Assembly (NCBI GenBank): GCA_018818835.1
Contig: JAHIRD010000125.1
Location: 1-54,292, forward strand
Length of the DNA stretch: 54,292 nt
Direction of reading: 5' to 3'
DNA from: Pseudomonadota bacterium
GTDB lineage: Bacteria > Desulfobacterota > Desulfobacteria > Desulfobacterales > Desulfolunaceae
The notes beneath the pieces were generated by a model. The model ran no database searches. It saw nothing but the letters and a program-made list of their open reading frames with translations, and was not told the DNA's origin. Both the position numbers and the translations under genes were made by a program. Numbering within the stretch: the stretch's first letter is position 1; each line of letters begins with the position of its first letter. This document shows positions 1,829 through 46,526 of this stretch, one piece after another.

Positions 1829-3145
1829 TCAACGATGAAGGTTAATAAAATCGACCAATTTCGGCATAACCAGATTCATGATGATTTGAATCCGATTAAA
1901 GGTTTCAAGAATGACCTTTGCCGTTTCATGATCAATGTCATGATTTCCCACAACAATATGATCCTGCAACCCCACCAGAGTTTCCACCGTTTTATCCAGT
2001 TCCTGAAAATTGATTTGAAGCCCTGAAGAATGATGAATTGTTTTATCAACAAATTCAGGAGATCCCTCATCCTTGAATGGAGTAGGGTGCTGATCACATG
2101 CTCCGTCGCCTGTGTGTAAGACCATCGATTTATCCTGAGTCATGTGGCATTCTTTGTGGATGGCGATCATCTCTTCACGCATCAACGTGAAATCCGTATG
2201 ATTTTGAATAAATTCCCGATGATCGTTAAGCCAGGACAAAATGACCATTTTTCCCGGTAATAATTTTTTGAAATAAGAATGCAGAAAATCAATCATGGAC
2301 AAAATATCATGGGTCTCCAGTGAAAACACATCCTTCCGGCACTCGTCATTCCCCTTGTATTTCAAAACATGAAGAAACGTGATACCCACAGAAATAATCC
2401 ATTTGGGTTTAACATTCAGATGCTCAGAAATATCCACCATGGATGTCCCCCGGGCCATCTGCTGTAAACAAAAAAAAGATAATCGTTCACCCACACTGAA
2501 ATCATAACCAAAGGCAGTTTTGATCTGATCAAAAATATCCTGATCAAAAAGATTGGCATCTTCCGCCTCCTTAAACCAACGAATCAAGGTCGGCTTAGGA
2601 GCCCCAAGGATCTCATGGATCTCGGAGATCTTTTTCTCTTCAACGAAATACAAATAGACCGCTTTTTTCTTGAGCTCATCCTTCTTTTTCTTTAACAAGG
2701 GCGACAAGATCGAATAAATAAACGTCTTTTTCATCTGTAAAATGTCAATGATGTCTTTAACCGGTATCTCCCTGTTGAAGGATTCAATGACGACATGCTT
2801 TAATTCCGATCGTGAAAGCGGTTTGGCGGTGTTGTTGTTGAAAGCGGCAGCATGCAACAGAAAATAGCCCAGGTCATTTTTGATATCCAATAAAACACAT
2901 TGAATCGTGGATTCCTTGAGAGACTTTCTGGCCTCGAATCGGTGCACACCATCAATGCATGAATAACCGTTGTTGTATTCCACCACTTTGATGGGGGCGA
3001 TATCGGTGCCGTGATCCAGCAGACTTTTCAGATAAATAATCCGGTTGGTATCGATAGCCTCCCGTGGATAAACATCGATGCTTATCATTTCAATCGGGAT
3101 TTCGACAAGTTCTATGCTATGTTCAGGAATGATAGATGTTTGCAT
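1829..3145 (-). CDS. ParB-like (Spo0J/ParB N-terminal domain) DNA-binding protein
   Basis: The protein has 438 residues. The N-terminal portion looks like a ParB/Srx domain: an IPIEMI(x)ID strand, then DGVHRFEA matching the family's G-x-R-R/H-x-x-A nucleotide-binding box. It is followed by helical DNA-binding-like segments (SRSELKHVV..., and an HTH-like KISEIHEILGAPKPT). ParB proteins bind centromere-like sites and load as CTP-dependent clamps; related plasmid proteins act as regulators or nucleases. I choose the ATG at 3145 because GGAAGGGG lies five bases upstream; the GTG at 3166 has no such site. The gene overlaps the end of the sigma-like gene by 23 bases, so the two are probably translationally coupled. 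No ParA is adjacent. The C-terminal 200 residues are unrecognised. Confidence 0.65.
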   Translation of the reverse strand: MQTSIIPEHSIELVEIPIEMISIDVYPREAIDTNRIIYLKSLLDHGTDIAPIKVVEYNNGYSCIDGVHRFEARKSLKESTIQCVLLDIKNDLGYFLLHAAAFNNNTAKPLSRSELKHVVIESFNREIPVKDIIDILQMKKTFIYSILSPLLKKKKDELKKKAVYLYFVEEKKISEIHEILGAPKPTLIRWFKEAEDANLFDQDIFDQIKTAFGYDFSVGERLSFFCLQQMARGTSMVDISEHLNVKPKWIISVGITFLHVLKYKGNDECRKDVFSLETHDILSMIDFLHSYFKKLLPGKMVILSWLNDHREFIQNHTDFTLMREEMIAIHKECHMTQDKSMVLHTGDGACDQHPTPFKDEGSPEFVDKTIHHSSGLQINFQELDKTVETLVGLQDHIVVGNHDIDHETAKVILETFNRIQIIMNLVMPKLVDFINLHR

Positions 3146-3767
3146 TGGAGCCCCTTCCAGCGTCACGAACGATGCTGAATTTATCTTTCAATGTCTGAAG
3201 TAAGGATTTGAAAATCTGGGAAACGCGGCTGGGAGAAAGTTTTAATTCATTGGCCGCCGAGACCATGGTAAGACGTTGGACGTACAGCTTGACATAAAGG
3301 GTTCGTTCAGATTGGTCCTGAATCGATTGGATAAAATCCGGGCTACTCAGATATTCAAGTTGAGTATGATAATCAGGATTGTCGGAATAGGAAGACACAT
3401 CGCTGGAATGAAAGTAATGATCGAACAAGGAATCCACATCGACATCGATGTCGCTCGATGGTTCGACAACATACAGCAAATCATCCAGAGCAATATGGTG
3501 GGATTGGTATAAAAAATGTTTTTTTCGAAGGTTCTGAAACAAATGCTCGATGGCATCACCACACCAGGTTATGAGGGTTTTCCCCCCGTCAGGTTCCCAG
3601 GAATTTGCCGCCTCAAGGGCAACCAGTATGGATTCATTGAACAGGTCGTCGTAGCTATACCCATTTAATCTGATAAAAGGCCCATGTGAATACCGTTGGA
3701 TATGGTGTTTGATGATCGGCTCAATGGAACCAATGAAGTTTTCTATGTTTTTATTATTCTTAGCCAC
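3123..3767 (-). CDS. Small sigma-70-like factor
   Basis: The protein has 214 residues and resembles a two-domain sigma factor. Region-2-like sequence spans about residues 38-80 (YDDLFNESILVALEAANSW, then an aromatic/basic stretch ending FQNLRKK). Region-4-like sequence spans about 165-200, with an HTH reading SAANELKLSPSRVSQIF. An acidic, low-complexity linker (DIDVDVDSLFD) separates them. Region 3 and the 1.1 region are absent, as in ECF or phage/plasmid sigma factors. The start is GTG with GGAG seven bases upstream. It overlaps the ParB-like gene and may direct transcription of element promoters, but this is inferred from family resemblance alone. It could instead be a sigma-like DNA-binding regulator. 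Confidence 0.6.
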   Translation of the reverse strand: MAKNNKNIENFIGSIEPIIKHHIQRYSHGPFIRLNGYSYDDLFNESILVALEAANSWEPDGGKTLITWCGDAIEHLFQNLRKKHFLYQSHHIALDDLLYVVEPSSDIDVDVDSLFDHYFHSSDVSSYSDNPDYHTQLEYLSSPDFIQSIQDQSERTLYVKLYVQRLTMVSAANELKLSPSRVSQIFKSLLQTLKDKFSIVRDAGRGSNANIYHS

Positions 3768-4614: not shown

Positions 4615-4647
4615 CGCCCTTTAGGTGAAAGTGTCACCTAAAGGGCG
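4615..4647. terminator. 14-bp perfect inverted repeat
   Basis: CGCCCTTTAGGTGA (4615-4628) and TCACCTAAAGGGCG (4634-4647) are separated by five bases. T6 follows about 14 bases later on the plus strand. The structure could be a terminator or an operator. It lies about 95 bases before the T8 that opens motif copy A. Copy B also has a long perfect inverted repeat shortly upstream. Confidence 0.45.
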
Positions 4648-4741
4648 GAACGCCACCGATTTTTTCATTGACAATCAGCCGATTGTTCCTTAGATTTTAG
4701 ACGTGATTTTGTCATTGAAGAAAAAAAGAAAATTTAAATGG

Positions 4742-4935
4742 TTTTTTTTGCAGATTAAATTTTTTAATCATGCATTCATGTTGGGGCTCCAACATGTTAC
4801 CGGTCTGTGGTGTGATAACCCGCACATCAGCCCGTCAACGGATAGGTTGAACAGTATATCCAAAAAATCCCAATTTTTTTGGAAGCCTTATGCGGTTATG
4901 TATAACAAGGAATCTGTTTAACCGGTGCATGGGAT
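4742..4935 (+). ncRNA. Structured non-coding motif, copy A
   Basis: This stretch aligns over nearly 200 bases with 23299-23505. Shared blocks, in order, are T8-GCwGAT, GCATTCATGTTG, CAACATGTTACCGGTC, GCCCGTCAAC, GATAGG, GTATAT, AGCCTTATG, GGAATCTGTTT and CCGGTG. Three hairpins occur at equivalent places in both copies with different stem bases: 4777-4784/4789-4796, 4809-4814/4823-4828 and 4860-4867/4875-4882, the last around a conserved TCCCAA loop. ACCGG at 4799 could pair with CCGGT at 4922 and close the domain. Changes that keep pairing point to an RNA (or folded single-stranded DNA) element. I do not recognise it as a known riboswitch or ribozyme. It precedes the recombinase gene by about 550 bases. 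Confidence 0.6.
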
Positions 4936-5481: not shown

Positions 5482-6453
5482 ATGAAAGGGAATATCAACT
5501 GGCAGGTTCAGAAACTGTACCATGAGTCAGGCATCAAGCAAATCGGCCAGTCCAAACACGAGGTTAAGGAAAGTATCCGGAAAAGCATTAATGGACAGAG
5601 CCGTGCCGCCACCTGGCATGCCATGGGCAAAGGCCTTGGAATCTACTCCATACGGACGGCGGATGCGTATCGGGATGTTTGGCGACAACTGGGCACTTAT
5701 GTCAAAGAAACGTTTCAGGTCAAGGATCTTGAAAAACTCACGGGAGAGCATGTGGAAGCGTTTCTGAAAACGAAAATTCAAAAAAACATAGCCCATAGCA
5801 CCCTTTCAAACTACGCGGCGGCCCTTGAAAAACTTGAAAGCGCCCTCAACGGATATGCCAAAGTCCACGGGACCGGAAACACCTATGCGTTTGCGGAAAA
5901 CATCGTTTCGGCACGATCCATGGCAAAAGAATCCCTGGAAAAGTTCACCGGATCACGGGCATACGAACGGCCCGAAGAAATTGTAAAATCCCTGAGGTCC
6001 CAAGATCACCGGCTTGTGGCACGCATCCAGCTTGAATCCGGGGCGCGTGTCAATGAATGCAATCATTTAACCCAGGAAGCCCTTCGCGGGTTAACAAAAG
6101 ATCCGGTCACTGGGGAAACGAAGGGCGTGCTTTATGTGGAAAAGGGTAAAGGCGGAAAATCCGGAGAAAAGTATCTGTCCCAGGAAACCTACCAGGAATT
6201 GAAAGAAAAAATCAGAACAACGGCCGAAGGCCGTTTTTGTTTCGAATACAGAAACTACATCCGGGACTTGAAAAAAGCGACGGATCGCACCCACCAGAAA
6301 TACCACGCCAGCCATGGACTGAGATGGAATTTCGCCCAACGGCGATTCAGGGAAAGCCAGGAACATGGCTCATGCTACACCCAGGCCCTCCTGCACGTGA
6401 GCCAGGAATTGTTTCATGAAAGGGGCGATATCACTGAACATTATCTGAAATAA
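5482..6453 (+). CDS. Tyrosine recombinase / integrase
   Basis: The protein has 323 residues. An N-terminal SAM-like core-binding domain spans about 55-125 (SIRTADAYRDVWRQL...HSTLSNYAAAL). The catalytic domain keeps every family signature: R189 in SGARVNE, a lysine in the KGKGGK hairpin near 222-226, H278-x-x-R281 (SHGLR), H312 in LFHERGDITEHY, and the nucleophile Y321 three residues from the end. It is therefore predicted to be active in site-specific recombination, either element integration/excision or plasmid dimer resolution. GGAGG sits close (three bases) to the ATG. The partner attachment site was not found. It is the first gene of the rightward region that runs into partition and transfer genes. 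Confidence 0.85.
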   Translation: MKGNINWQVQKLYHESGIKQIGQSKHEVKESIRKSINGQSRAATWHAMGKGLGIYSIRTADAYRDVWRQLGTYVKETFQVKDLEKLTGEHVEAFLKTKIQKNIAHSTLSNYAAALEKLESALNGYAKVHGTGNTYAFAENIVSARSMAKESLEKFTGSRAYERPEEIVKSLRSQDHRLVARIQLESGARVNECNHLTQEALRGLTKDPVTGETKGVLYVEKGKGGKSGEKYLSQETYQELKEKIRTTAEGRFCFEYRNYIRDLKKATDRTHQKYHASHGLRWNFAQRRFRESQEHGSCYTQALLHVSQELFHERGDITEHYLK

Positions 6454-6552: not shown

Positions 6553-7581
6553 ATGGGACATAACGGACACATGCTTTTGGGCGTGGATATCGGGTTCGGT
6601 GATGTCAAAGCCACGGTTTTTTACGACGGCAAACAAACAACCATCAAATTCCCCACAGCCATCTCACCCTGCCAGCGGTCGGAAATCCGAGGCCTGGATA
6701 ACACCCAAGACCAATTCATCTATAAATCACGAAAATTCCTGTTGAGTTATGACGCCCTTTTTTCCGATACGATCATATCCACACGAAGCCTTCAATTTTT
6801 AAAAGAGTTCACGCCGATCTTTTTGTTCAAGGTTCTGGTCGAACTTTCCAAAGAGCTGAACATCCCCCTTGAACGGTTGGTTCATCAACCCAAGAAAATC
6901 TGCCTGGGGCTCCCCCTGGAATTTTTTTTTCTGGAAAAAAACGCCATTCGGGGATCCATAGAAACCTTCATGGTGACATACATCTTAAAGGGCAAGTCAA
7001 CCTCCTACACTGTTTCCTGCCCGAACGTGGATGTCCGGGCGCAAGGCCAGGGAGTTATGACCGATTTTCTGATCACGGAAAAAGGGCTCAGGACCGGGCA
7101 CCTTGAAAGCAATGTCCTGGTCGTGGATATCGGATTCAATACCGTGGATGTCCTTTCCTTTATTCGGGGCCGAGCAAGTTCCAACGGATCATACATGATG
7201 AACGGCCAAGGGGTTTGTCGCATCACCCGGGAACTGGGGATTGAAATCAAACAGGAACAAGGGGTGACGCTGTCTGAGCAGAAGCTAAAAGAGGTGCTCA
7301 GAACACGCCAGTTGAAAATAAAAAACCAGGATCTCCCCCTCAACTCAACCATCGACATGGTGGTCACTGAGTATGTGGCCCACCTGATCCATGAACTTGA
7401 AACCAAATCCCAGCAAACCATGAACGACGCGGAAACGCTCATCGTAGCCGGCGGGGGTGCTTATTACCTTTCCGGGCAGCTTAAATCCCTATTTACCGAC
7501 AACTTCCTTCATATTCCCGGTCAACCTGAATTCGCCAATGCCCGGGGATATATGAAAAAATTAAAGGTGGTGGACTCATGA
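6553..7581 (+). CDS. parM: ParM/StbA-like actin-family ATPase
   Basis: The protein has 342 residues and the actin/Hsp70 nucleotide-binding signatures: phosphate-1 LLGVDIGFGDVK (about 8-19), phosphate-2 VLVVDIGFNTVD (about 186-197) and the adenosine loop LIVAGGGAYYL (about 297-307). Plasmid ParM proteins form dynamic filaments that push sister plasmids apart, using ParR bound at the parC centromere. The ATG is preceded by AAAGGA. The next gene overlaps by four bases (ATGA) and is the natural ParR candidate. This pair opens a run of transfer genes with no gap, which links segregation and conjugation transcriptionally. Similar actin-like ATPases (for example Alp7A) are the alternative within the family. 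Confidence 0.8.
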   Translation: MGHNGHMLLGVDIGFGDVKATVFYDGKQTTIKFPTAISPCQRSEIRGLDNTQDQFIYKSRKFLLSYDALFSDTIISTRSLQFLKEFTPIFLFKVLVELSKELNIPLERLVHQPKKICLGLPLEFFFLEKNAIRGSIETFMVTYILKGKSTSYTVSCPNVDVRAQGQGVMTDFLITEKGLRTGHLESNVLVVDIGFNTVDVLSFIRGRASSNGSYMMNGQGVCRITRELGIEIKQEQGVTLSEQKLKEVLRTRQLKIKNQDLPLNSTIDMVVTEYVAHLIHELETKSQQTMNDAETLIVAGGGAYYLSGQLKSLFTDNFLHIPGQPEFANARGYMKKLKVVDS

Positions 7582-21972: not shown

Positions 21973-22710
21973 TTATATGCTGGGATGAACAATGTCGATG
22001 GCCTCCATGTTCAACTGGCTTCTCACCGTGCGAATCGCGTTAATGAGATCGATTGTGAACAAGGCATCCGATTCAATGAAGGAGATGTGACCGATAAACC
22101 TTCGCAGGGTTGTAAAAGAGGAAAAAGGAAGGATCTCTTTTAGTAAGAGGGCGGGAAAATCCTTGGCTGAGCGTGATACGATAACCACAAGGGGATTGAT
22201 CGTGATTTTGGCCACATAAAATTTCATCAAACAGCCGGGTAAATAAAACGGTTTTTCAGTCGGCACCCAAAACGACCGGGGGAAAATGGCATGTTCATCG
22301 CCCACGTTAACGGTGATCATCTTTGGGCTGCATGACATGATTTCTCCGTCTACCACAGTATGTTTTTTCGAAGCCCATCTTTCTGTCGTGCGTTGTAAGG
22401 ATAAATCCATCAGAGCGTCAGAAAAAAAGGTTTTTGTGGAATGAACCAAATGGTCTGGAAAATCTTTAATGTTGAATTGAACCCGTATAACGTCACCCTC
22501 GATCACCGAATGATCGAAAATCAGAGCCTTGGAAAGAGAAAGATCCACGGGTATTCGGTAAACGACATCGATGGTTTTATCATCGAGGGATACATCAACA
22601 CTGTTAATATTGTGTGAACGACGAAACGACTCCTCAATCGCCAATCGAAGCGCTTTTTCGACAACATCCAGGTCGTATCCATATTTTTCAGCAAAAGATA
22701 AAAGATTCAT
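21973..22710 (-). CDS. NusA-like transcription elongation factor
   Basis: The protein has 245 residues from ATG at 22710 (GGAG nine bases upstream; the TTG at 22728 lacks a site). Residues 1-110 match the NusA N-terminal domain (LDVVEKALRLAIEESFRR, EGDVIRVQF). Residues 117-181 form an S1 domain (VVDGEIM, MITVNVGDEHAIFPRS, LPGCLMKFYVA) ending in IVSRSAKDFPALLLKEILP, which parallels the NusA linker 'TRSKPEMLIELFRIEVP'. The last 45 residues look like a worn KH1 domain ending NMEAIDIVH. KH2 is absent. NusA binds RNA polymerase and modulates pausing, termination and antitermination. This is a divergent element-encoded paralogue, transcribed opposite to the ssb region. Confidence 0.75.
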   Translation of the reverse strand: MNLLSFAEKYGYDLDVVEKALRLAIEESFRRSHNINSVDVSLDDKTIDVVYRIPVDLSLSKALIFDHSVIEGDVIRVQFNIKDFPDHLVHSTKTFFSDALMDLSLQRTTERWASKKHTVVDGEIMSCSPKMITVNVGDEHAIFPRSFWVPTEKPFYLPGCLMKFYVAKITINPLVVIVSRSAKDFPALLLKEILPFSSFTTLRRFIGHISFIESDALFTIDLINAIRTVRSQLNMEAIDIVHPSI

Positions 22711-22806
22711 ATGTTGGAACTCCGTCAAACACGATTAAACATAGCCAGTATAATTATAATAGCAGGTCCAAAAAGTGGGACAAACTTAAACCCAAAGGAG
22801 AGATCC

Positions 22807-23229
22807 ATGCAAAAAAAAGAAAACGATAAAACGACAAAAAAAGGAAACAAAGAACACTGGGAAGCGATGAAGAAAATGACAAATTGGCGGGGTGTATTGT
22901 GTACGGTTCCCGAGACGTATGGATTTATTGACCTGACCAAAGAAATCGACATCACCGTTAAAAAACTGCGAAACGGAGTTTCAAATCGAATTTCAATGAA
23001 ACAAGCGGCCCCCATGTTTGATGCCTTAAATGATGCAACCTTGTTGTTGGTTCAAACGGTAGAAATTATTGCACAGACCTTGGGATATAATAAATACAGA
23101 ACGCCAAGGTTATTTCAACAAATGCAAGAGACGCATGCCTTTGATAACGATTTAGAACAAAAAATGAATGCTTTGAAAATCAGACTCAGTTCGGAGAGTA
23201 AAGAACAAAGGGATTTTGAAACCCATTGA
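22807..23229 (+). CDS. Hypothetical protein divergent from the NusA-like gene
   Basis: The protein has 140 residues from ATG at 22807, which has AAAGGAGAG upstream; the frame is open from 22711 but has no site there. A basic N-terminus (KKENDKTTKKGNKEHW) is followed by helices. The pattern VKKLRNGVSNRISMKQAAPMF hints at a small DNA- or nucleotide-binding helical domain. No family is recognised. The 96-base gap to the NusA-like gene contains overlapping TATAAT boxes (22749-22760), consistent with a shared divergent promoter. It ends just before a 20-bp inverted repeat. Confidence 0.5.
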   Translation: MQKKENDKTTKKGNKEHWEAMKKMTNWRGVLCTVPETYGFIDLTKEIDITVKKLRNGVSNRISMKQAAPMFDALNDATLLLVQTVEIIAQTLGYNKYRTPRLFQQMQETHAFDNDLEQKMNALKIRLSSESKEQRDFETH

Positions 23230-23236
23230 AAAAGGT

Positions 23237-23282
23237 CCAAAACGTTCCATTTTTCCATTTTCGGAAAAATGGAACGTTTTGG
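23237..23282. terminator. 20-bp perfect inverted repeat
   Basis: The arm at 23237-23256 (beginning CCAAAACGTTCC) is exactly complementary to 23263-23282, with a six-base loop. A T8 run starts 16 bases later on the plus strand and is also the first element of motif copy B. It is probably a strong terminator or roadblock that isolates the ssb leader. Confidence 0.65.
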
Positions 23283-23298
23283 ATCTGGTTCATAACGC

Positions 23299-23505
23299 TT
23301 TTTTTTGCTGATAAATAGTTTATTTATTTAGCATTCATGTTGATTGATCAACATGTTACCGGTCATTGCAGAGAATACCCTTTGTGACGCCCGTCAACCG
23401 ATAGGCAAAGCCGTATATTCAAAATTTGTATCCCAAAAATTTTGAAAGCCTTATGTGGTATCTACGATCGTGATCAGGGAATCTGTTTTGCCGGTGTGAA
23501 GGGAT
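23299..23505 (+). ncRNA. Structured non-coding motif, copy B (ssb leader)
   Basis: This is the counterpart of 4742-4935. Stems at the same places are 23336-23342/23349-23355, 23368-23373/23380-23385 and 23418-23427/23437-23446, the last with loop GTATCCCAA. Bases in the stems differ from copy A but still pair. Conserved single-stranded blocks include GTTACCGGTC, GCCCGTCAAC, GATAGG and AGCCTTATG. A terminator-like hairpin and the ssb start follow within 80 bases, an aptamer-plus-platform layout. No known class is recognised. Confidence 0.6.
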
Positions 23506-23579: not shown

Positions 23580-24170
23580 ATGTTGAAATCAAATGTCATC
23601 ATCGTATCCGGAAAAATTGTGAAAACAACTGCCATCAATCAAAACAAAAAGAAAGGAATTCGATCAACCCTTGAAACAACGGATAGCCAGGGCAACAAAA
23701 GCTGGTTTGTCATCGATGCTGCGGATGATCTTGCCCAAGACATGAAGAAATTCGCCCATGTCATCGTCAAGGGAAGAATCTGTTACGAAAAAAACGAAGC
23801 AAACACCCTGGTCTATGTCAAGGCCAATGAAATCCATCCGGTCAACGGAATGATACCGCTGAACAATGTCACCTTATCCGGCAATGTCACCCGTGACATC
23901 GAAATGAGATCGGTTCCGAACAAAAACGGTGGAGACGATTATACGGTTTCAAAGACCGTGCTGGCCTTCAACGATTTCTCGGGAAACACCCATTTTGTTT
24001 CCGTGGAAGCCTGGGAAGGACTTGCCAAGTCAACTGAAAACCTGATGAAAGGCTCGACCGTTGAAGTCCGGGGAAGATTGATCCAAAAGAGCTGGGACAA
24101 TGGTAACAGCTCCATGGTTATGATTCGTGCAAACGAAATCGACTTTGTCAGAAAGCCCGCCAGAAAGTAG
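23580..24170 (+). CDS. ssb: Single-stranded DNA-binding protein with two OB folds
   Basis: The protein has 196 residues from ATG at 23580, with AAGGAG upstream. Longer in-frame starts run into motif B and are rejected. The chain splits into two similar halves, each starting with a V-x-V-S/L-G strand (NVIIVSGKIVKT and NVTLSGNVTRDIEMR) and ending with a 'VKGR/VRGR ... ANEI' strand (residues 1-85 and 93-190). The second half is the closer match to bacterial SSB. The usual acidic C-terminal tip that recruits partners is missing; the protein ends KPARK. Conjugative elements carry SSB to protect entering single strands. Reduced interaction with host replication enzymes is a possible consequence. 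Confidence 0.75.
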   Translation: MLKSNVIIVSGKIVKTTAINQNKKKGIRSTLETTDSQGNKSWFVIDAADDLAQDMKKFAHVIVKGRICYEKNEANTLVYVKANEIHPVNGMIPLNNVTLSGNVTRDIEMRSVPNKNGGDDYTVSKTVLAFNDFSGNTHFVSVEAWEGLAKSTENLMKGSTVEVRGRLIQKSWDNGNSSMVMIRANEIDFVRKPARK

Positions 24171-24514: not shown

Positions 24515-24570
24515 GGGTTTTTCAAACAACCCGATCCGGGGACTCCTATACGGGGTTGTTTGAAAAACCC
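24515..24570 (+). promoter_or_regulatory. 18-bp perfect inverted repeat
   Basis: The arm at 24515-24532 (starting GGGTTTTTCAAAC) is fully complementary to 24553-24570, with a 20-base loop. The DUF932 start is 20 bases beyond. There is no T-run, so it is better read as a message-stabilising, attenuating or protein-binding element than as a classic terminator. Confidence 0.6.
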
Positions 24571-24589
24571 CCAGAAAAGGAGAAATCCC

Positions 24590-25300
24590 ATGAACAGTAT
24601 CCCCTTAAACATACTCGAAGAGAAATACCCATCACTGATCCAGACAGCTGCTTTCCAGGGAGCCTCAGCCCGGTATTCACAGATTCCAACCATCGAGATT
24701 ATCATGATGATGATGGAACAACAGTGGTTTCCTGTGAAAGTCATGGAATCACACGTCAGAAAAGAAGACCGGTCCTGCGCCTTCCAGTTCTATCTGGGCG
24801 TGTTTCGAATCGCATGCACCAATGGACTGATTGTTGGCGAACAGTTCAAACGAATCAGTGTCAAACACCAGGACATCGGCAAAGAAGCGGTGATCAATGC
24901 ATCGTTCAAGATCATCGACAAAGCCTCCAAAACCATAGAAACCATCAAGGACATGAAGGAGATACCCCTGACCGGACCTGAGCAAGACATTTTTGCCAAA
25001 ACAGCCCTCTCGGGCATGCTTCAGATCCCTTTCAATGACCTTGAGACAAAATCACCCTACACACCGGACCAGCTCTTACGGGCCAGGCGCAGGGATGACC
25101 ATGGAAAAGACGATCTGTGGACCGTCATGAACACCGTCCAGGAAAACATGATCAAGGGAGGTCTTCGCGGATTCAATCCAAAAACTAAGAAAAGGGTCAA
25201 AACCCGGGGTGTCAAAGCCATTGACAAGGATGTGAAACTCAACACCCTGGTTTGGACCCTGGCCGAGAAGATGAAAGAACTCAAAACAAAACCATCATGA
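24590..25300 (+). CDS. DUF932 family protein
   Basis: The protein has 236 residues from ATG at 24590 (AAAAGGAG upstream). The block SCAFQFYLGVFRIACTNGLIVGEQFKRISVKH matches the core of the DUF932/YfjQ family, common on plasmids, phages and conjugative elements and often next to ssb and radC. Its biochemical role is not established. It probably belongs to the set expressed on entry into a new host, given the cluster it sits in. Confidence 0.75.
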   Translation: MNSIPLNILEEKYPSLIQTAAFQGASARYSQIPTIEIIMMMMEQQWFPVKVMESHVRKEDRSCAFQFYLGVFRIACTNGLIVGEQFKRISVKHQDIGKEAVINASFKIIDKASKTIETIKDMKEIPLTGPEQDIFAKTALSGMLQIPFNDLETKSPYTPDQLLRARRRDDHGKDDLWTVMNTVQENMIKGGLRGFNPKTKKRVKTRGVKAIDKDVKLNTLVWTLAEKMKELKTKPS

Positions 25301-26234: not shown

Positions 26235-27035
26235 ATGGATAAACACTTTGCTGTTGGATGTATCTATTACACACGATCAATCTGCGACCATAACTGTATC
26301 TACCAATATGAAGTTATAAAAAGAACCGAAAAAACCCTCTGGATCAGAGACCCCAGATATCCCAATGAAAAACGACAGTCCCGGCGAATTCAGATCCGTG
26401 ACGGGGTGGAGGGCATCTATCCCAGCGGCCGATACAGCATGGCACCGTACCTGTCCGCAGACAAGATCTACGATCCAACCACCGTGAAGCCCGATTGGGA
26501 AAAAGATGATTTCCAGACCAAGGACGTTCACCATGATGTGGATATTGTGAAGGTAGGCCTGGTCAAGGATACAACCCTTTCGTATGCGGGCTCACCGAAG
26601 GTATGCAATCCGGAAGACGCCGGAGAAATCATCAAACAGACCATTTTAAAGAGGGGGCAGAACGACAGGGAGCAGATTGTCGTTATCATGCTGGCAAACG
26701 ATAACAGGGTCATTGCGACCACGATCGCTCATATGGGTTCCCTGGATCGATGCATCGTCCATCCCCGGGAAATAATGAAAACGGCGCTTCTGGCAAACGC
26801 ACGATCGATTATCCTGGGTCACAACCACCCCTCTTCAACTGTGAACCCGTCACCTGATGACTTGGAAATCACACGAAGGATAGCATTGGCCGCAAGCGTA
26901 CTTGAGGTCAAATTACTGGATCATGTGATCGTTTCTTTTGAAACGGACCGGATTTACAGCATGGAGGAAAACGGCGTTTTGCCCAGAGTAAACAGCCGAG
27001 ACATGAACAGATTGATGGCAGGAAATAAACCATGA
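26235..27035 (+). CDS. RadC/JAMM-domain protein with an extra N-terminal domain
   Basis: The protein has 266 residues. From about 125 on it is a RadC-type JAB/MPN+ domain with the JAMM zinc motif GHNHPSSTVNPSPDD (about 195-209) and an upstream Glu region (REQIVVIML). Despite the name, the family has no proven repair role and is common on mobile elements. The first ~90 residues (FAVGCIYYTRS, RTEKTLWIRD, GIYPSGRYSMAPYLSA) are not part of RadC. They resemble the entire 75-residue product of the next gene, so the protein is a fusion. ATGA links it to that gene. Confidence 0.75.
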   Translation: MDKHFAVGCIYYTRSICDHNCIYQYEVIKRTEKTLWIRDPRYPNEKRQSRRIQIRDGVEGIYPSGRYSMAPYLSADKIYDPTTVKPDWEKDDFQTKDVHHDVDIVKVGLVKDTTLSYAGSPKVCNPEDAGEIIKQTILKRGQNDREQIVVIMLANDNRVIATTIAHMGSLDRCIVHPREIMKTALLANARSIILGHNHPSSTVNPSPDDLEITRRIALAASVLEVKLLDHVIVSFETDRIYSMEENGVLPRVNSRDMNRLMAGNKP

Positions 27036-28484: not shown

Positions 28485-28799
28485 ATGTTTAACAATAATA
28501 TTGATATCGAATCTCTCTTAAAACAACTCGGTGGGCGGCTGAAAGAGGCGCGTTTATCCAGAAACGAAAGCCAGGAATTGTTCGCCCAGCGGCTTGGTAT
28601 AACCCGCCAGTCCTACAGCCGGATGGAAAAGGGTTCTCCTCAGACATTGATCGGCAACTGGCTGGCTGCAAGCAGCCTTCTCGGCAGGCTTGACGATTGG
28701 GACGCCCTCTTGGCCGAAAAAGAAGACCTGTTTGCCAAATTCGAGAAAAAAACCAGCAAGCGACAACGGTCCGGTGGCAAACGAAAGAGACATATATGA
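28485..28799 (+). CDS. hipB: HipB-like antitoxin (XRE family)
   Basis: The protein has 104 residues. It carries a Cro/C1-type HTH (LGGRLKEARLSRNESQELFAQRLGITRQSYSRME reads as helices 1-4). Antitoxins of this type bind operators near their own promoter and neutralise HipA. The basic C-terminal tail (KKTSKRQR...) may contact DNA or toxin. ATGA overlap with hipA fixes the operon. The start at 28485 is taken from the promoter position; no ribosome binding site is seen. Confidence 0.8.
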   Translation: MFNNNIDIESLLKQLGGRLKEARLSRNESQELFAQRLGITRQSYSRMEKGSPQTLIGNWLAASSLLGRLDDWDALLAEKEDLFAKFEKKTSKRQRSGGKRKRHI

Positions 28800-30022
28800 T
28801 CAGACTTGATATCTGGCTGACCCTTCCATCAGGTAAACATATGAAAGCAGGTGCTTTGGTTGTGGGTGATCCTGATCCTGTCAGAGGGGGATTGCATGGA
28901 CAGTTTCGTTATGCCCCAGAGTATCTGGAACAACCGCACGCATTTTCCTTTGATCCCTTAAACTTACCGTTATCTAAGGAAACCTTTGATGCGGACCGGC
29001 CGCGTGAGGGGGTTCATGGCGTTTTTGAAGACAGCCTTCCCGACGACTGGGGTCGAAAGCTCATGGCCCGCCGCCACAAACTGGACCGCAAGGAGCAACG
29101 TGTTCCCAATTTATTGCGGTTGCTGGACAATCAGGGCTTGGGGGCTTTGAGTTACCTTACGATAGGTGAGCCAGAATTGAGAACAATCGGAGTCTCCTGC
29201 CAGCATCTGGAGAAACTGGCCTTGCTTGCGCAGAAATTCGAACAGGAACCCGACATCGCGGACGACAATGATTTTTCTCTCTTGTTTCAGGCAGGCAGTT
29301 CACCGGGGGGAGCCCGGCCCAAAGCCCTCGTGAAAGACGACAAGGGCGCATACCTGGCAAAGTTTGCCAGTTCCAAAGACAGGTTTGACGTGGTTAGCCT
29401 TGAGGCTGCGGCCATGGAACTGAGTCGAATGGCAGGGATAGAAACAGCCGATACCATGCTGATGCCACTGGGGAAAGAGGTAAAATGTCTCCTGGTCAGG
29501 CGTTTCGACATCAACGAGCAAGGTGGCCGCAATCACCTGATCAGCATGCAGTCGCTTCTCAAGGCAGATGGTTATTATAATGCCGGATACAGAGACCTGA
29601 CAAACGTCATCAGGCACATGTCATCACAACCGGGCCATGATTTGAGCAGACTTTACCGACAGATGGTATTTAATGTCATGATAGGCAATACGGACGATCA
29701 CCTGAAAAATTTTATCATGCTGCATGATGACAACGGCTGGCGCTTAAGTCCTGCTTTTGACATGGTACCGAACATAGGATTTAACCGGGAACACGTTCTT
29801 CGAATCGGTCTTGATCCTCGGCCGCCGAATACTGAAACGCTTCTTTCCGAGATGAAACATTTTGGAATAAAAAGACGGCAACAGGCCATGGGAATCATTG
29901 AAGAGGTTCACGGGGCTGTATCAAAATGGCCCGAAGTTTTCAGTCAATACAATGTACCGGAAACGGACGCCGAACGTCTTGGAAAGGATATCGGTCAACG
30001 GTTGAAGAGAACCTGCTATTGA
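28796..30022 (+). CDS. hipA: HipA-like toxin kinase
   Basis: The protein has 408 residues. HipA kinases phosphorylate glutamyl-tRNA synthetase or related targets and cause dormancy. The N-terminal couplet domain includes GVFEDSLPDDWG, and the P-loop-like SSPGGARPKALV lies near 170. The catalytic loop GNTDDHLKNF (about 297-306) and the following AFDMVPN supply the Asp and Asn needed for phosphotransfer. The gene appears intact, in contrast to the broken yoeB. Length is close to typical HipA (about 440). Confidence 0.85.
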   Translation: MIRLDIWLTLPSGKHMKAGALVVGDPDPVRGGLHGQFRYAPEYLEQPHAFSFDPLNLPLSKETFDADRPREGVHGVFEDSLPDDWGRKLMARRHKLDRKEQRVPNLLRLLDNQGLGALSYLTIGEPELRTIGVSCQHLEKLALLAQKFEQEPDIADDNDFSLLFQAGSSPGGARPKALVKDDKGAYLAKFASSKDRFDVVSLEAAAMELSRMAGIETADTMLMPLGKEVKCLLVRRFDINEQGGRNHLISMQSLLKADGYYNAGYRDLTNVIRHMSSQPGHDLSRLYRQMVFNVMIGNTDDHLKNFIMLHDDNGWRLSPAFDMVPNIGFNREHVLRIGLDPRPPNTETLLSEMKHFGIKRRQQAMGIIEEVHGAVSKWPEVFSQYNVPETDAERLGKDIGQRLKRTCY

Positions 30023-30137: not shown

Positions 30138-30362
30138 TTATTTTTTTGACATCGCTTTTAGTTCAGCCAACGAAATGAATTCAGCCTTGCTATTTTTAAT
30201 TTTTGCTTTTCTTTTTTCCAGAATATCAGCATGCCATGAAGGTGGAGTGATATCATCGTATCGAAATGATTCCCAAAGAGCCTCCATGATCCTGAGGCGC
30301 TCAATGACACTGATTTGTGAATAATCATCCATAGACACTGGCCCATAACCTTTACGGTTCAT
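30138..30362 (-). CDS. Orphan addiction-module antitoxin
   Basis: The protein has 74 residues (or 64 if the ATG at 30332 is used, which matches the usual family start better). VIERLRIMEALWESF, PSWHADILEKR and FISLAEL match the antitoxin family TIGR02574, partners of RelE/ParE toxins. The start overlaps the end of the DUF4143 ATPase gene. No toxin frame follows downstream before hipA, so it is an orphan. Confidence 0.65.
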   Translation of the reverse strand: MNRKGYGPVSMDDYSQISVIERLRIMEALWESFRYDDITPPSWHADILEKRKAKIKNSKAEFISLAELKAMSKK

Positions 30363-31635
30363 CAAGAAGCCACTTCCACAAGGGTAGGATGATAATCGTT
30401 TTCCCGTTATGGATCAGTGTTTCCTCGTGATCTTTGGTTAAAAGAAAACCCTTTTCATAATCAAAAAACTGTAACGCTTCCACGAGCCCGTTCAATTCTC
30501 TTTTCCGTGTGTCGGGATTGGAGATGTCGAAACTGACGTTTGTAATGATGATGCCGTTATCTGTTCGGCAGTAAAAATCCACTTCCTGATTACCAAGATA
30601 ATAGTAGACTTCCCTGGATTTTCTTCTCAAATGTAAAAAAGCAGCATTTTCATACAACCTTCCCAGATCCGGTGACAGGGACACGGAGTATAGGGATTTA
30701 AAACCATTGTCAACCGAGTATATTTTTTTGGGATTGCGCTGCTCTTCCCGGACCGAGTTTCTGAAAACGGGAGTACTGAAAACGGCAAAGGCGTCATTGA
30801 GATAGGAGAAGTAGTCAAACAGGGTATCTTTCCCCACCTTGAATCCCTGGGATTTAAAGTCGTTGTATAGTTTTGTCATGCTCAGTGATGTGGCCACGTT
30901 TGAAAAACAGTATTTGACAAGATGCTTCATCAACGCGTGGTTTTTAATGCCGTACCGTTCGATGATATTTTTATAGATGATCAGGTCGGCATAGTCACTG
31001 AGTATCCGGGACCTGATTTCAGGAAAAACGTCTATGGTCTCTGCGAATCCTCCATGCAGAATATAGTCGTCAAACGCATTGATCATATAACTCAGCGACC
31101 GTGACGAATGCATGTTAACGTCTATGTTGCGGAATCTTAAGTATTCTGCGAACGAAAACGGAAAAATTTCATACGTAAAGGTTCTGCCCCTAAGGGCCGA
31201 GGCAATTTCAGAACTCAACAGCTTGGATGACGAGCCGGTGATAAAAATTTCCGCATTCAGGGTATCATAGATTCTTCGGACGAATTTTTCCCAATGATCC
31301 ACATTTTGTATTTCATCAAGAAAGAGATAGATTTTTTTATTGCGATTGGCAGGGTGTAATTCGAAATAAGCTTCCACAAGATCATTGAGATCGCCTATCT
31401 CAAGCGGAAAAAGACGGTCATCTTCAAAATTGATATAAACGATCCGGTCCGGATCGATGGTTTTTCTGAGTGTGTTAACAATGTTGAAAAGGATTGACGT
31501 CTTGCCACTTCTCCTTACGCCGATTAATGAAACGATTTTCCCTGAATCGACAGGTATCTCCATATCCCTGGATACCTTGGGCTTTAATTGCTGTTCTTGA
31601 AAATCTGTGATGATTTTTTTAAAAATTGCTTTCAT
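30352..31635 (-). CDS. AAA-family ATPase with DUF4143 domain
   Basis: The protein has 427 residues from ATG at 31635 (AAAGGA upstream); the longer open frame to 32004 is rejected because it reads through the promoter region and antisense to the next gene. Walker A IGVRRSGKTSIL lies near 40, and Walker B KIYLFLDEIQNVDHW follows. The C-terminal DUF4143 domain contains a nuclease-like EVDF motif (GNQEVDFYCR). Proteins of this type are widespread in mobile and sulfate-reducer genomes; their function is unsettled, and some behave like single-gene stress or defence modules. Inverted GGACAAA repeats overlap the start. Confidence 0.75.
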   Translation of the reverse strand: MKAIFKKIITDFQEQQLKPKVSRDMEIPVDSGKIVSLIGVRRSGKTSILFNIVNTLRKTIDPDRIVYINFEDDRLFPLEIGDLNDLVEAYFELHPANRNKKIYLFLDEIQNVDHWEKFVRRIYDTLNAEIFITGSSSKLLSSEIASALRGRTFTYEIFPFSFAEYLRFRNIDVNMHSSRSLSYMINAFDDYILHGGFAETIDVFPEIRSRILSDYADLIIYKNIIERYGIKNHALMKHLVKYCFSNVATSLSMTKLYNDFKSQGFKVGKDTLFDYFSYLNDAFAVFSTPVFRNSVREEQRNPKKIYSVDNGFKSLYSVSLSPDLGRLYENAAFLHLRRKSREVYYYLGNQEVDFYCRTDNGIIITNVSFDISNPDTRKRELNGLVEALQFFDYEKGFLLTKDHEETLIHNGKTIIILPLWKWLLDEP

Positions 31636-31676
31636 TTTGTCCTTTCTTGTAAGGACAAAATACACATAGTTTGTCC
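31635..31676 (-). promoter_or_regulatory. Operator-like repeats at the ATPase start
   Basis: TTTTGTCC (31635-31642) and GGACAAAA (31653-31660) form an 8-bp inverted repeat, and TTTGTCC recurs at 31670-31676. The first arm includes the last base of the start codon complement, so a bound repressor or folded leader would block translation or initiation. Confidence 0.45.
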
Positions 31677-31788
31677 ATGTAGTCAAGGATGAAATGTTCT
31701 GTGTTCCATAGACACCATATTGAACACACCCCCAAACCATCCCGCCATAATCAAAATAAGATGAACATATAAATATAAGGAGTCGATT

Positions 31789-32781
31789 ATGGGAAAACCC
31801 CAAACCATTGACGTACCCATCCAAACCCTGTGTGTCCTTTGGACCCATACGGACACCGTGGAATGCATGGAACCTGGCCCAACAGTGCCCGATGATTTGA
31901 ATCCTGTCCTGAAAAGCTTTTTTATGAAGATCCAAAGCCAGTATTTTACTGGCTTGAATCACGGGTACATACCGGCCGTGATAGAGATACTCACGCAGAT
32001 CCATGAAAAGGGCAATCAGGGCTTTATCGGGAAAACACTGGGCGTGACACGCAAGACCATCAACATTCTTGAAAAATCAAATTATAAACACATGATCCCC
32101 CAAGCCGTGATCGCAGCATTGGGCAGGGATCTGGGGGAACTGGATCAAATCAAAGCCAACGGCGATCATGTGTTTCATAGCCTGCGGCTCGTCCAAAAGA
32201 TTCTCGAGAACGCTCACATAGAGTCGGACGACATCTTGTTGGCCATCCGGCTTCACCATGAGGAGCCTTCCGACGTTGAAGGCAGCACCCCCATCGCCAT
32301 CGCCTTGAATCTGGCCCTCAGAGAGTTCAAGGAGACGGCAAGCCCAACGGTCAAACCCAAAGAGCCCCCGACATCACCTCAGGTCCTCCTGTATTCCAAA
32401 GAAGATATCCTGGGCAGGATTTATGACGCCATCGACCCCTACGGATTTTCTGTCTTTTTTTTTGAAGGAAAAATTTATGTCAGTACCAGGGAATTGAAAA
32501 ACCTCATCCCAAAAAATGATCCCAAACACGGGAAACCTCATAATGATGGTTTTGAAAAGGAGGTGAAACGATTATTGAACCTTTCTCCTGTTCGTTGCCA
32601 GCTGAAATTCAAAAACAAAAACTTCAAACCGACCAAAAGCCGTTTTTACCTGTTCGATGAGCATCAATTCAACAAACCCATTTTGGGAGAAAAAAAAATC
32701 ATCCCCAGGGATGGGGAAGGGCGCTGGCTAAGAAAAATAAACATAATAGAAGAAGAGGAACCTCATGAGCCCTCAAACTAA
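31789..32781 (+). CDS. Putative DNA-binding regulator heading the second transfer cluster
   Basis: The protein has 330 residues. Residues ~75-110 (NQGFIGKTLGVTRKTINILE) resemble a helix-turn-helix. The C-terminal third is basic (KNKNFKPTKSR) with an aromatic strand region (FSVFFFEGKIYVSTREL). AAGGAG precedes the ATG. It is the first gene of the rightward run through traA-traG and overlaps the OmpA-like gene by 17 bases. A role in controlling the operon is inferred from position. No family is recognised. Confidence 0.45.
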   Translation: MGKPQTIDVPIQTLCVLWTHTDTVECMEPGPTVPDDLNPVLKSFFMKIQSQYFTGLNHGYIPAVIEILTQIHEKGNQGFIGKTLGVTRKTINILEKSNYKHMIPQAVIAALGRDLGELDQIKANGDHVFHSLRLVQKILENAHIESDDILLAIRLHHEEPSDVEGSTPIAIALNLALREFKETASPTVKPKEPPTSPQVLLYSKEDILGRIYDAIDPYGFSVFFFEGKIYVSTRELKNLIPKNDPKHGKPHNDGFEKEVKRLLNLSPVRCQLKFKNKNFKPTKSRFYLFDEHQFNKPILGEKKIIPRDGEGRWLRKINIIEEEEPHEPSN

Positions 32782-45386: not shown

Positions 45387-46526
45387 TCACGACAGGGTAT
45401 TAATCTCTAACAGGTTTTTTAAAGGTAAAACGTCGACTCCAGCGGCAAGAGAGTATCGTCGATCTCCAGGATAGATGACCCAGAGTTTGTCTAACTGAAG
45501 GTCCGTCATAGCCCTTCGCATGGACGGGGTGAGTCGGGGGGCATCTGCCCGCTTGACGTCAAGCCCCAATCGTTTCCTGTTTTTAACCAGAAAGAGATCC
45601 AGTTCAGCTCCGTTATGCGTCGCCCAAAAATAGGCTTCCTCCGGTTGTATTGCCCTGAGAGCCTCTTCAATCACATACCCTTCCCAAGACGCTCCACATG
45701 ATGGATGTGTCAGAAGGTTTCCTTGGGTTCCAATCCCCAGAAAAGTATGAAGCAAACCGCTATCGCGTATATACACTTTAGGTGCTTTGACTTGCCTTTT
45801 TTTTATATTGGCATACCACGGTTGGAGTTGACGCACCATGAAAATACCCTCCAAGAGATCAAGATATCTGCGAACAGTGGGGGCACTTACACCCATAGAG
45901 CGTGCAAAGGGCGCTGCATTCCAAATCTGACCATGAAAGTGGGCTATCATGGTCCAAAAACGGAAAAGGACTTTGGAAGGGATGCCAGAACGAATCTGGG
46001 GAATATCCCGCTCCACAACGGCCATCAGGAAATTTTTCCTCCATGCGTGACTGTTTTCGTCAGACTCAGCCAAATAGGATAAGGGGAATCCTCCCCTAAG
46101 CCAATGGTGCTCCTGGTTGCCAACTCCGATTTCAGCCAGGTTGAAGCCGGTCATCGTTATGATCTCCATGCGTCCAGCCAAAGACTCTGATGACTGACGT
46201 AAAGCGCTGCCAAGAATAAGAAATGTTGCATTCAGTGGCTTACGGTCTGAAAGAACGCGAAGCACGGGAAACAGTTCCGGTCGACGCTGAATTTCATCAA
46301 TGACGATAAGTCCCTTAAGCCCTGAGAGTGCTGTCATGGGTTCATCCAGTCGAGCAAGGCTGATAGGGTCTTCCAGGTCGAAATAGTTGGGTGATTCTTG
46401 AGAAAGAAAATGGCGCGCAAGGGTTGTCTTACCGCACTGACGAGGCCCACTAAGGATCGTTACCCGGCTTCGTGAAAGAGCTTTTTCTATGGATTTTATA
46501 TATCCTTTTCTGAGTATCATGTTCAT
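45387..46526 (-). CDS. AAA-family ATPase with DUF4143 domain
   Basis: The protein has 379 residues. Walker A LSGPRQCGKTTLARHF is near 25-40, Walker B GLIVIDEIQRRPELFP near 72-87, and a sensor ILGSALRQ follows. The DUF4143 domain (VSAPTVRRYLDLLEGIFMV, KVYIRDSGLLHTFLG) ends with the ELDLFLV nuclease-like strand. It belongs to the same broad family as the gene at 30352 but is too different to be a recent duplicate. The start codon lies inside an inverted repeat. Function is unsettled for the family. Confidence 0.75.
   Translation of the reverse strand: MNMILRKGYIKSIEKALSRSRVTILSGPRQCGKTTLARHFLSQESPNYFDLEDPISLARLDEPMTALSGLKGLIVIDEIQRRPELFPVLRVLSDRKPLNATFLILGSALRQSSESLAGRMEIITMTGFNLAEIGVGNQEHHWLRGGFPLSYLAESDENSHAWRKNFLMAVVERDIPQIRSGIPSKVLFRFWTMIAHFHGQIWNAAPFARSMGVSAPTVRRYLDLLEGIFMVRQLQPWYANIKKRQVKAPKVYIRDSGLLHTFLGIGTQGNLLTHPSCGASWEGYVIEEALRAIQPEEAYFWATHNGAELDLFLVKNRKRLGLDVKRADAPRLTPSMRRAMTDLQLDKLWVIYPGDRRYSLAAGVDVLPLKNLLEINTLS

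Follow-up and report, generated by a model that had tools for sequence, protein, structure and literature searches.

The window, by which we mean the whole stretch of 54,292 nucleotides that was analysed, is an entire contig (G000:C67), and comparison of its ends showed no overlap. It carries two copies of a structured motif on the plus strand, delimited with blastn and covariance models: copy A (4742-4929; a T-run and hairpin P1, then a core at 4774-4929) and copy B (23299-23498; core 23333-23498). Both are intergenic and lie 18.5 kb apart. They share about 70% identity (blastn E 2.8e-15 in their own 6.75-Mb genome), and with the next matches in that genome at E 0.06 and 0.37 they are its sole two strong sites. 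Copy A is followed after 553 nt by a tyrosine integrase gene (5482-6453, plus; PHROG integrase 7.5e-8, with Pfam Phage_int_SAM_1 at 2e-4 and Phage_integrase at 0.0012, both below cut-offs) and then by a ParM/actin-like gene found by domain search (6553-7581, plus). Copy B stands 82 nt ahead of a gene for a single-strand DNA-binding protein (SSB; 23580-24170, plus; Pfam SSB 1.5e-14), behind which lie a DUF932 gene (24560-25300, plus; Pfam 5.4e-18) and, within the same ssb gene cluster, a RadC-like JAB gene (26235-27035, plus; Pfam 9.3e-35). Upstream of copy B a short NusA-like protein of 251 aa is encoded on the opposite strand (21973-22728, minus), and between this gene and copy B there is an uncharacterised gene (22711-23229, plus), relatives of which accompany NusA-like genes in several further elements.

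F-type transfer genes are present in the window and, among the hosts examined, near motif copies or NusA-like genes of genomes G029, G122, G269 and G132; neither a relaxase gene nor an oriT was found in the window. Upstream of copy A, on the minus strand, a sigma-70-like protein (3123-3767; TIGR02937 1.4e-9, below cut-off) and a ParB/Noc-like protein assigned by family search (1829-3166) are encoded, and relatives of both were detected in other motif-bearing elements. Several further genes were recorded in passing: an Mrr-like restriction endonuclease domain (633-1496, minus; Pfam 3e-12), a HipA-like gene (28697-30022) and an AAA_14/DUF4143 ATPase gene (30352-32004, minus) among the transfer genes, a second ATPase gene similar by look only (45387-46526, minus), and a very long, repetitive-looking open frame (47502-54290; 2263 aa and on) that runs off the contig end. 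In the divergent intergenic region 5' of copy A an inverted repeat, CGCCCTTTAGGTGA / TCACCTAAAGGGCG, was noticed by eye (4615-4647), and a 30-nt inverted repeat with 90% complementarity lies directly 5' of copy B, spanning the upstream gene's stop codon (23227-23292).

The sequence blocks which a preliminary description of this DNA had listed as shared by the two sites are indeed present, and the TCCCAA loop, CAACATGTTACCGGTC, GCCCGTCAAC, GATAGG and AGCCTTATG are identical in A and B. Copy A begins with a T8 run (4742-4749), and a T-rich stretch was seen by eye 5' of the core in many copies (upstream of 41 matches); in some of them (G269, G132, G312) there is also, by eye, a hairpin shortly 5' of the T-run. 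Hairpin P1 (4750-4773, plus; GCA GATTAAA ... TTTAATC A TGC) precedes the core in the window copies, and two of its pairs are changed on both sides between A and B. The first hairpin of the preliminary description, P2 (4777-4784/4789-4796 in A; 23336-23343/23348-23355 in B), had been credited with a change from GG/CC to AT/AT; the outer variable pair does change from G-C to A-T, but the next pair inward is G.T in copy A, not G-C. P2 (4777-4796 as a whole in copy A) varies in length and sequence, and a stem of at least 4 pairs forms in only 23 of 39 copies (mean shuffle p 0.59, no statistical support).

The core shared by the family consists of hairpin P3, a GCCCGAUAA-like block and a long helix, P5, which closes hairpin P4 together with a conserved region 3' of P4. 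For P3 (4810-4825 in copy A), copy A has two pairing registers, and the family-wide one is GTGTG/CGCAC (4810-4814/4821-4825) as against CAGAG/CTTTG in copy B (23369-23373/23380-23384). P4, the third hairpin (4860-4867/4875-4882, hence 4860-4882 overall, CCAAAAAA TCCCAAT TTTTTTGG; in B 23418-23427/23437-23446), matches its earlier description. The best-supported helix had been overlooked. This is P5, formed by GGTTGAACAG (4845-4854) and CTGTTTAACC (4914-4923) in copy A and by GGCAAAGCCG (23404-23413) and CTGTTTTGCC (23483-23492) in copy B, where it contains one C.T mismatch; its arms were placed from the alignment and covariation counts. Unpaired letters such as ACAACGGA and GCCCGATAA are, by eye, fixed in many copies. 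Likewise by eye only, a GCCC/GGG pairing is suggested, which would form a pseudoknot.

Homologues were collected with a series of covariance models. The model built from copies A and B (R1), with which 389 genomes of the class were searched, gave matches in four genomes besides their own. Three of these, G092, G269 and G122, were real and hold two, two and six copies, respectively; the fourth, G112, was excluded because the next model gave no match there. That model (R2, 8 sequences) was run on 395 genomes of the phylum, which added G029 and produced two weak matches (G502, G668). A third model (R3, 14 sequences) was used on 389 genomes of the order with E up to 0.05. It yielded 42 matches in 19 of these 389 genomes. 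One host is a plasmid of Desulfosarcina sp. BuS5. All matches except that of G240 were aligned (alignment A8, 41 sequences). For counts of position, L111, apparently within a coding frame, and the partial L112 were removed, leaving 39 copies; the covariation, G.U and promoter counts on 41 sequences retain both. Some of the weaker R3 matches lie directly ahead of ssb (G055, E 0.007; G052, 1.6e-4; G312, about 6e-5) and are probably true copies, since this position is information absent from the model.

Other searches returned little. Blastn with copy B gave no match in plasmids and phages, nor did one copy each from G269 and G325 in plasmids. Pattern scans of viral contigs were likewise without a match, exact patterns being prone to overlook diverged copies, and the scan of genome contigs brought up two contigs, both from 'Desulfobacteraceae bacterium isolate S2_4', and nothing else. 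In a first DNA search of 146 relatives only short, chance-like matches appeared outside the own genome. No Rfam 15 family reached its gathering score anywhere in the window, nor in 10 copy-bearing loci scanned at E up to 5-10, the 4227 families scanned presumably including STAXI. Among the open-licence papers listed, none dealt with this RNA or with NusA paralogues carried by such elements.

Covariation in the collected sequences was extensive. Among the 41 aligned matches all 23 modelled pairs showed two-sided change and 91.5% of cells were paired, compared with 34-44% in slid controls and with none of 500 shuffles as high; in the 25 sequences outside R3 (the 41 minus L111, L112 and the 14 that built the model) 90.5% were paired (shuffles 63.4%), 22 of 23 pairs changed on both sides and again none of 500 shuffles was as high. 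These percentages lean upward: the models that collected the sequences favour the very pairs that were counted, and alignments A7 and A8 were fitted to the structure. An unfitted MAFFT alignment of 8 sequences (A6) gave 94.0% pairing for P3, P4 and P5 (shuffles 77.5%, slides 37-51%) with two-sided change at 16 of 23 pairs, but its six non-window members had been found by R1 and P3-P5 were read off A6 before counting. By helix, the paired cells amounted to 96.1% in P3 (two-sided change at 6/6 pairs), 91.4% in P4 (7/7) and, for P5, 98.8% in the 8 sequences and 94.4% and 83.5% for its halves in the 41.

The motif is a conserved structured RNA family. A selected fold of no recognised class had been suspected from the two copies alone; with homologues beyond the element, covariation above every shuffle and no Rfam 15 match, that suspicion has held, and the signal gained strength when homologues from other genomes were included. 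The folding energies of the two copies as RNA (z -3.75 for A, -2.78 for B) likewise exceed what chance would give. The alternative that A and B merely stem from a duplicated coding segment was rejected, as both copies are intergenic and their pairs covary.

Folding energies say little about the strand: as RNA, the plus strand gave z values of -3.75 (A) and -2.78 (B), the minus strand about equal ones of -3.40 (A) and -3.20 (B), and copy B folded as DNA reached -3.41. A G.U on the plus strand corresponds to an A.C mismatch on the opposite strand, so that an excess of G.U over A.C points to the plus strand. Such an excess was observed at 19 of 22 informative pairs in the 41 sequences (p 0.0009; 63 versus 26 cells) and in the 14-sequence set (25 versus 7 cells), in a test that is biased because the recruiting models tolerate G.U more than A.C. 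Weighing both lines, we assign the fold to the coding strand, whether that strand is present as RNA or as single-stranded DNA.

An integrase gene follows 553-991 nt downstream in 11 of the 39 copies and an SSB gene 82-2946 nt downstream in 14, with RadC behind it in 12 of these 14; no copy has both within 10 kb. All 25 linked copies have their gene downstream and on the same strand, and other arrangements within 5 kb were limited to two integrase matches and no SSB match. The remaining 14 copies precede neither gene class, six of them with less than 2 kb of contig remaining; they include four of the six copies in G284 and two in G030 that lie 753 nt apart. The six copies of G122 form three pairs with 32-48 kb between partners; in every pair one partner is integrase-side and the other SSB-side, and the pairs were taken to be three elements. 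Both kinds also occur once each in the window and once each, on two contigs, in G029. Between motif and integrase gene, a short repeat unit close to TAACGGYATNAGGCYAAAC was noticed by eye in three G122 loci (L032, L033, L051), and different repeats, GGCGTGATGCC, in G029.

Other classes of site were discarded. Attachment sites flanking the element do not fit two copies of about 70% identity with tra genes on both sides of copy B, and an oriT does not fit two copies that stand in one direction ahead of genes. The complete plasmid of Desulfosarcina sp. BuS5 (NZ_CP087953.1), which carries F-type tra genes, has the motif at 75657-75819 on the minus strand, in a 496-bp gap ahead of the ssb gene BuS5_RS19995. 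MOB-suite classes this plasmid as non-mobilizable.

The NusA-like protein was characterised by comparison with NCBIfam, PDB and AlphaFold2/Foldseek. It matched the NCBIfam NusA model at 6.8e-14 with 51.6 bits, below the model cut-off of 253, and the NusA structure 1hh2 in the PDB at 1.2e-8; Pfam and PHROGs gave no match. Its AlphaFold2 model (pLDDT 84.7) had NusA structures as top Foldseek matches (best 8.8e-17, with query-based TM-scores reaching 0.65). The match covers the N-terminal and S1 parts of NusA (residues 25-213 of the 344 in 1hh2) and, ending at residue 213, does not take in the full KH1-KH2 RNA-binding part; the final 50 residues of the protein presumably resemble part of KH1, as judged from the consensus of that domain. 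Chromosomal NusA differs in size, its matches measuring 370-525 aa compared with 233-317 aa for the element open frames, and its later KH and C-terminal parts are unmatched in the element protein. Judged by N-terminal and S1 sequence and by predicted fold, the protein encoded at 21973-22728 is a relative of NusA.

The NusA-like gene adjoins the SSB-side copy in six genomes. A profile built from the proteins of these six detected the protein in 12 of 389 genomes of the order, separating the weakest element protein (2.2e-25) from the best host NusA (E 1.2e-15). The gene was present in 9 of the 19 motif genomes (Fisher p 4e-11, or 6e-4 once the six genomes that supplied the profile are left out), a test that assumes the same 389 genomes of the order in both searches, for which the listed handles agree. 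By the profile, none was found in the other 10 motif genomes, including the single-contig G362 and the six-copy G284, and three genomes (G053, G344, G361) have the protein without the motif. In G122, G269 and G132 about 41-138 kb separate the gene from the closest copy, and it is often found beside tra genes. Ten stretches around NusA-like genes away from known copies (eight with 9-10 kb per side, two shorter) gave no motif match at E up to 5. Motif and NusA-like gene may merely be part of one element family. On the BuS5 plasmid, motif, NusA-like gene and ssb operon stand side by side; there the gene (BuS5_RS20005, WP_027354588.1; 76368-77105) is annotated as a hypothetical protein only, and another sigma-70 gene lies about 1.3 kb away. 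In G269 a relative of the sigma-70-like gene of the window is found about 3.7 kb from the NusA-like gene.

The fold and its same-strand position are well supported, and the motif is very probably a cis-acting RNA element. As to its function, our preferred explanation is that it would be a structured leader RNA at the head of two operons that F-type conjugative elements carry in Desulfobacterales, both of an establishment-like kind: one with integrase and, in places, parM, the other with ssb, recombination genes and radC. The RNA would be read from the coding strand as a series of hairpins with a long closing helix and many fixed unpaired letters. It would probably modify the transcribing RNA polymerase and allow read-through of the operon, by processive antitermination or another form of elongation control, with the NusA paralogue of the element as its likely partner. 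Transcription of the motif, its action on elongation and its binding by the NusA-like protein are inferred. Antitermination is favoured because a structured RNA heads two early operons, because the elements often carry a NusA paralogue and because the arrangement recalls nut/put, canT and conAn; the statement in its full form is plausible, at somewhat less than an even chance. The place expected of an antitermination RNA, on the same strand ahead of an operon, is taken by all 25 linked copies, the other 14 of 39 being unlinked. Scans for terminators and promoters lent antitermination no support. Intrinsic terminators behind the two window copies were not clearly enriched (17 versus 12.0, sd 3.8, and 23 versus 20.2, sd 4.5, on both strands; 3 and 9 on the plus strand only). 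A consistent sigma-70 promoter was not found upstream of the 41 matches (mean p 0.46; five with p up to 0.1), and copy A alone was striking, with TTGACA-17-TAGATT at 4668-4696 (plus) and no consistent counterpart ahead of the other copies.

In HK022 put and lambda nut, one copy stands ahead of each of two early operons, and nut works with NusA; put and nut sites are much shorter than the motif and phage-borne, and it is by description, one copy for each of two early operons, that they were likened to it. Precedents for cis-acting antitermination RNAs, namely put, EAR, conAn2 and canT, are given in two papers (PMC8955417, PMC11658703). The canT RNA of the ICE Tn916 and the conAn2 RNA of plasmid pLS20, with its protein ConAn1, are likewise structured RNAs that act in cis from a place upstream of a conjugative element's operon, and conAn resembles the present case also in combining an RNA with an element-encoded protein. 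Compared by description, they differ in being Gram-positive and in serving long transfer operons instead of int and ssb, and antitermination was demonstrated by experiment for them, whereas here it is inferred, with the NusA paralogue as candidate partner. The STAXI motif (Weinberg 2010) is also found near ssb, integrase, topoisomerase and antirestriction genes, and its authors also weighed single-stranded DNA against RNA. A STAXI site consists of two or three repeats of a pseudoknot, whereas the motif is a unit of 170-200 nt with no tandem repeat in the window. The window copies are 18.5 kb apart and even the closest pair (G030:C304) is separated by 753 nt; as cmscan of 10 loci did not list STAXI either, it was rejected as an identification.

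Several other readings were weighed against antitermination. A cis-acting leader that works by another mechanism, binding a protein of the element or host or a ligand and thereby controlling the int and ssb operons at the level of translation, stability or attenuation, fits the covariation and the same-strand position equally well. The spacing of 82-357 nt to ssb in seven copies would suit a 5' UTR, and the fixed unpaired ACAACGGA and GCCCGATAA suggest a binding site; the 553-991 nt between motif and integrase gene, however, are long for a translational switch. Since no consistent intrinsic terminator was found behind the motif in 14 copies scanned, a simple terminator switch is unlikely, and a terminator-type riboswitch was rejected on the same scan. 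Altogether we regard such a leader as rather unlikely, if deserving of serious attention. That scan also counts against a trans-acting small RNA of the element, for which the compact, structured intergenic unit and the several copies in some genomes could speak; the same-strand linkage to two kinds of gene fits it poorly, and we give it very little credence. The radC RNA (RF01754), of which the motif might be a distant member, keeps similar gene company. It is listed for Proteobacteria in Table 1 of PMC2864571, is of cis-regulatory type in Rfam and is linked by name to radC. Against this, the RF01754 model gave 11 matches in 5 motif genomes at E up to 10, none at the motif and none above cut-off, cmscan at E 5-10 did not report it in 10 motif loci, and consensus, hairpin order and architecture differ; the radC RNA was therefore rejected, and a distant kinship seems the least credible of these readings.

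Two further readings place the fold in single-stranded DNA. An operon with radC, like one with ssb, is typical of leading regions. In Samuel 2024 (PMC11541004), Frpo promoters are described ahead of ssb in the leading regions of F-like plasmids. An Frpo/ssi-like role, which the preliminary description had offered as its alternative, would mean that the entering strand folds and gives RNA polymerase a start site, so that expression precedes second-strand synthesis. It would suit the folding of copy B as DNA and of the minus strands about as well as the plus strands. Likened by description, the two differ in that apparently the opposite strand folds and that recurrent promoter hexamers, expected of Frpo as -35 and -10 in paired regions, were not seen here, neither as a sigma-70-like pair inside copy A or B nor consistently upstream. 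The strand argument disfavours this reading, because Frpo folds the entering template strand whereas the G.U/A.C asymmetry, from a biased test, points to the coding strand for the motif, and in all 25 linked copies the genes lie downstream on the strand with the apparently selected fold; we consider it improbable. The interpretation of the preliminary description was in this way partly supported. The coding-strand DNA might instead hold a site for single-strand initiation or priming, from which the second strand is synthesised after transfer. The frequent two copies per element, the T-run and the adjoining genes for DNA metabolism and integration would be in keeping with this. Against a priming site, there is no need for a replication site to precede ssb or int on one strand, yet all 25 linked cases do, and RNA is the more usual setting for long fixed loops whose covariation is rich in wobble pairs; we judge it very improbable.

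Returning to the antitermination leader, a wider proposal can be made: a two-part elongation control in Gram-negative F-type elements, in which a leader RNA on each establishment operon, a truncated NusA and perhaps the sigma factor encoded at 3123-3767 (minus) would turn on the int and ssb operons together after entry. This is speculative and, in our estimate, unlikely to hold in all its parts. The idea can be put to the test with the complete BuS5 plasmid, where the RNA is found together with the NusA-like gene and the ssb operon. How conjugative elements turn on their first genes after reaching a new cell has been studied chiefly in F-like plasmids and in a small number of Gram-positive elements. 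An RNA common to integrase and ssb operons would, if the proposal is true, be a shared establishment switch, and the mobile paralogue of NusA would amount to an elongation factor carried by the element itself.
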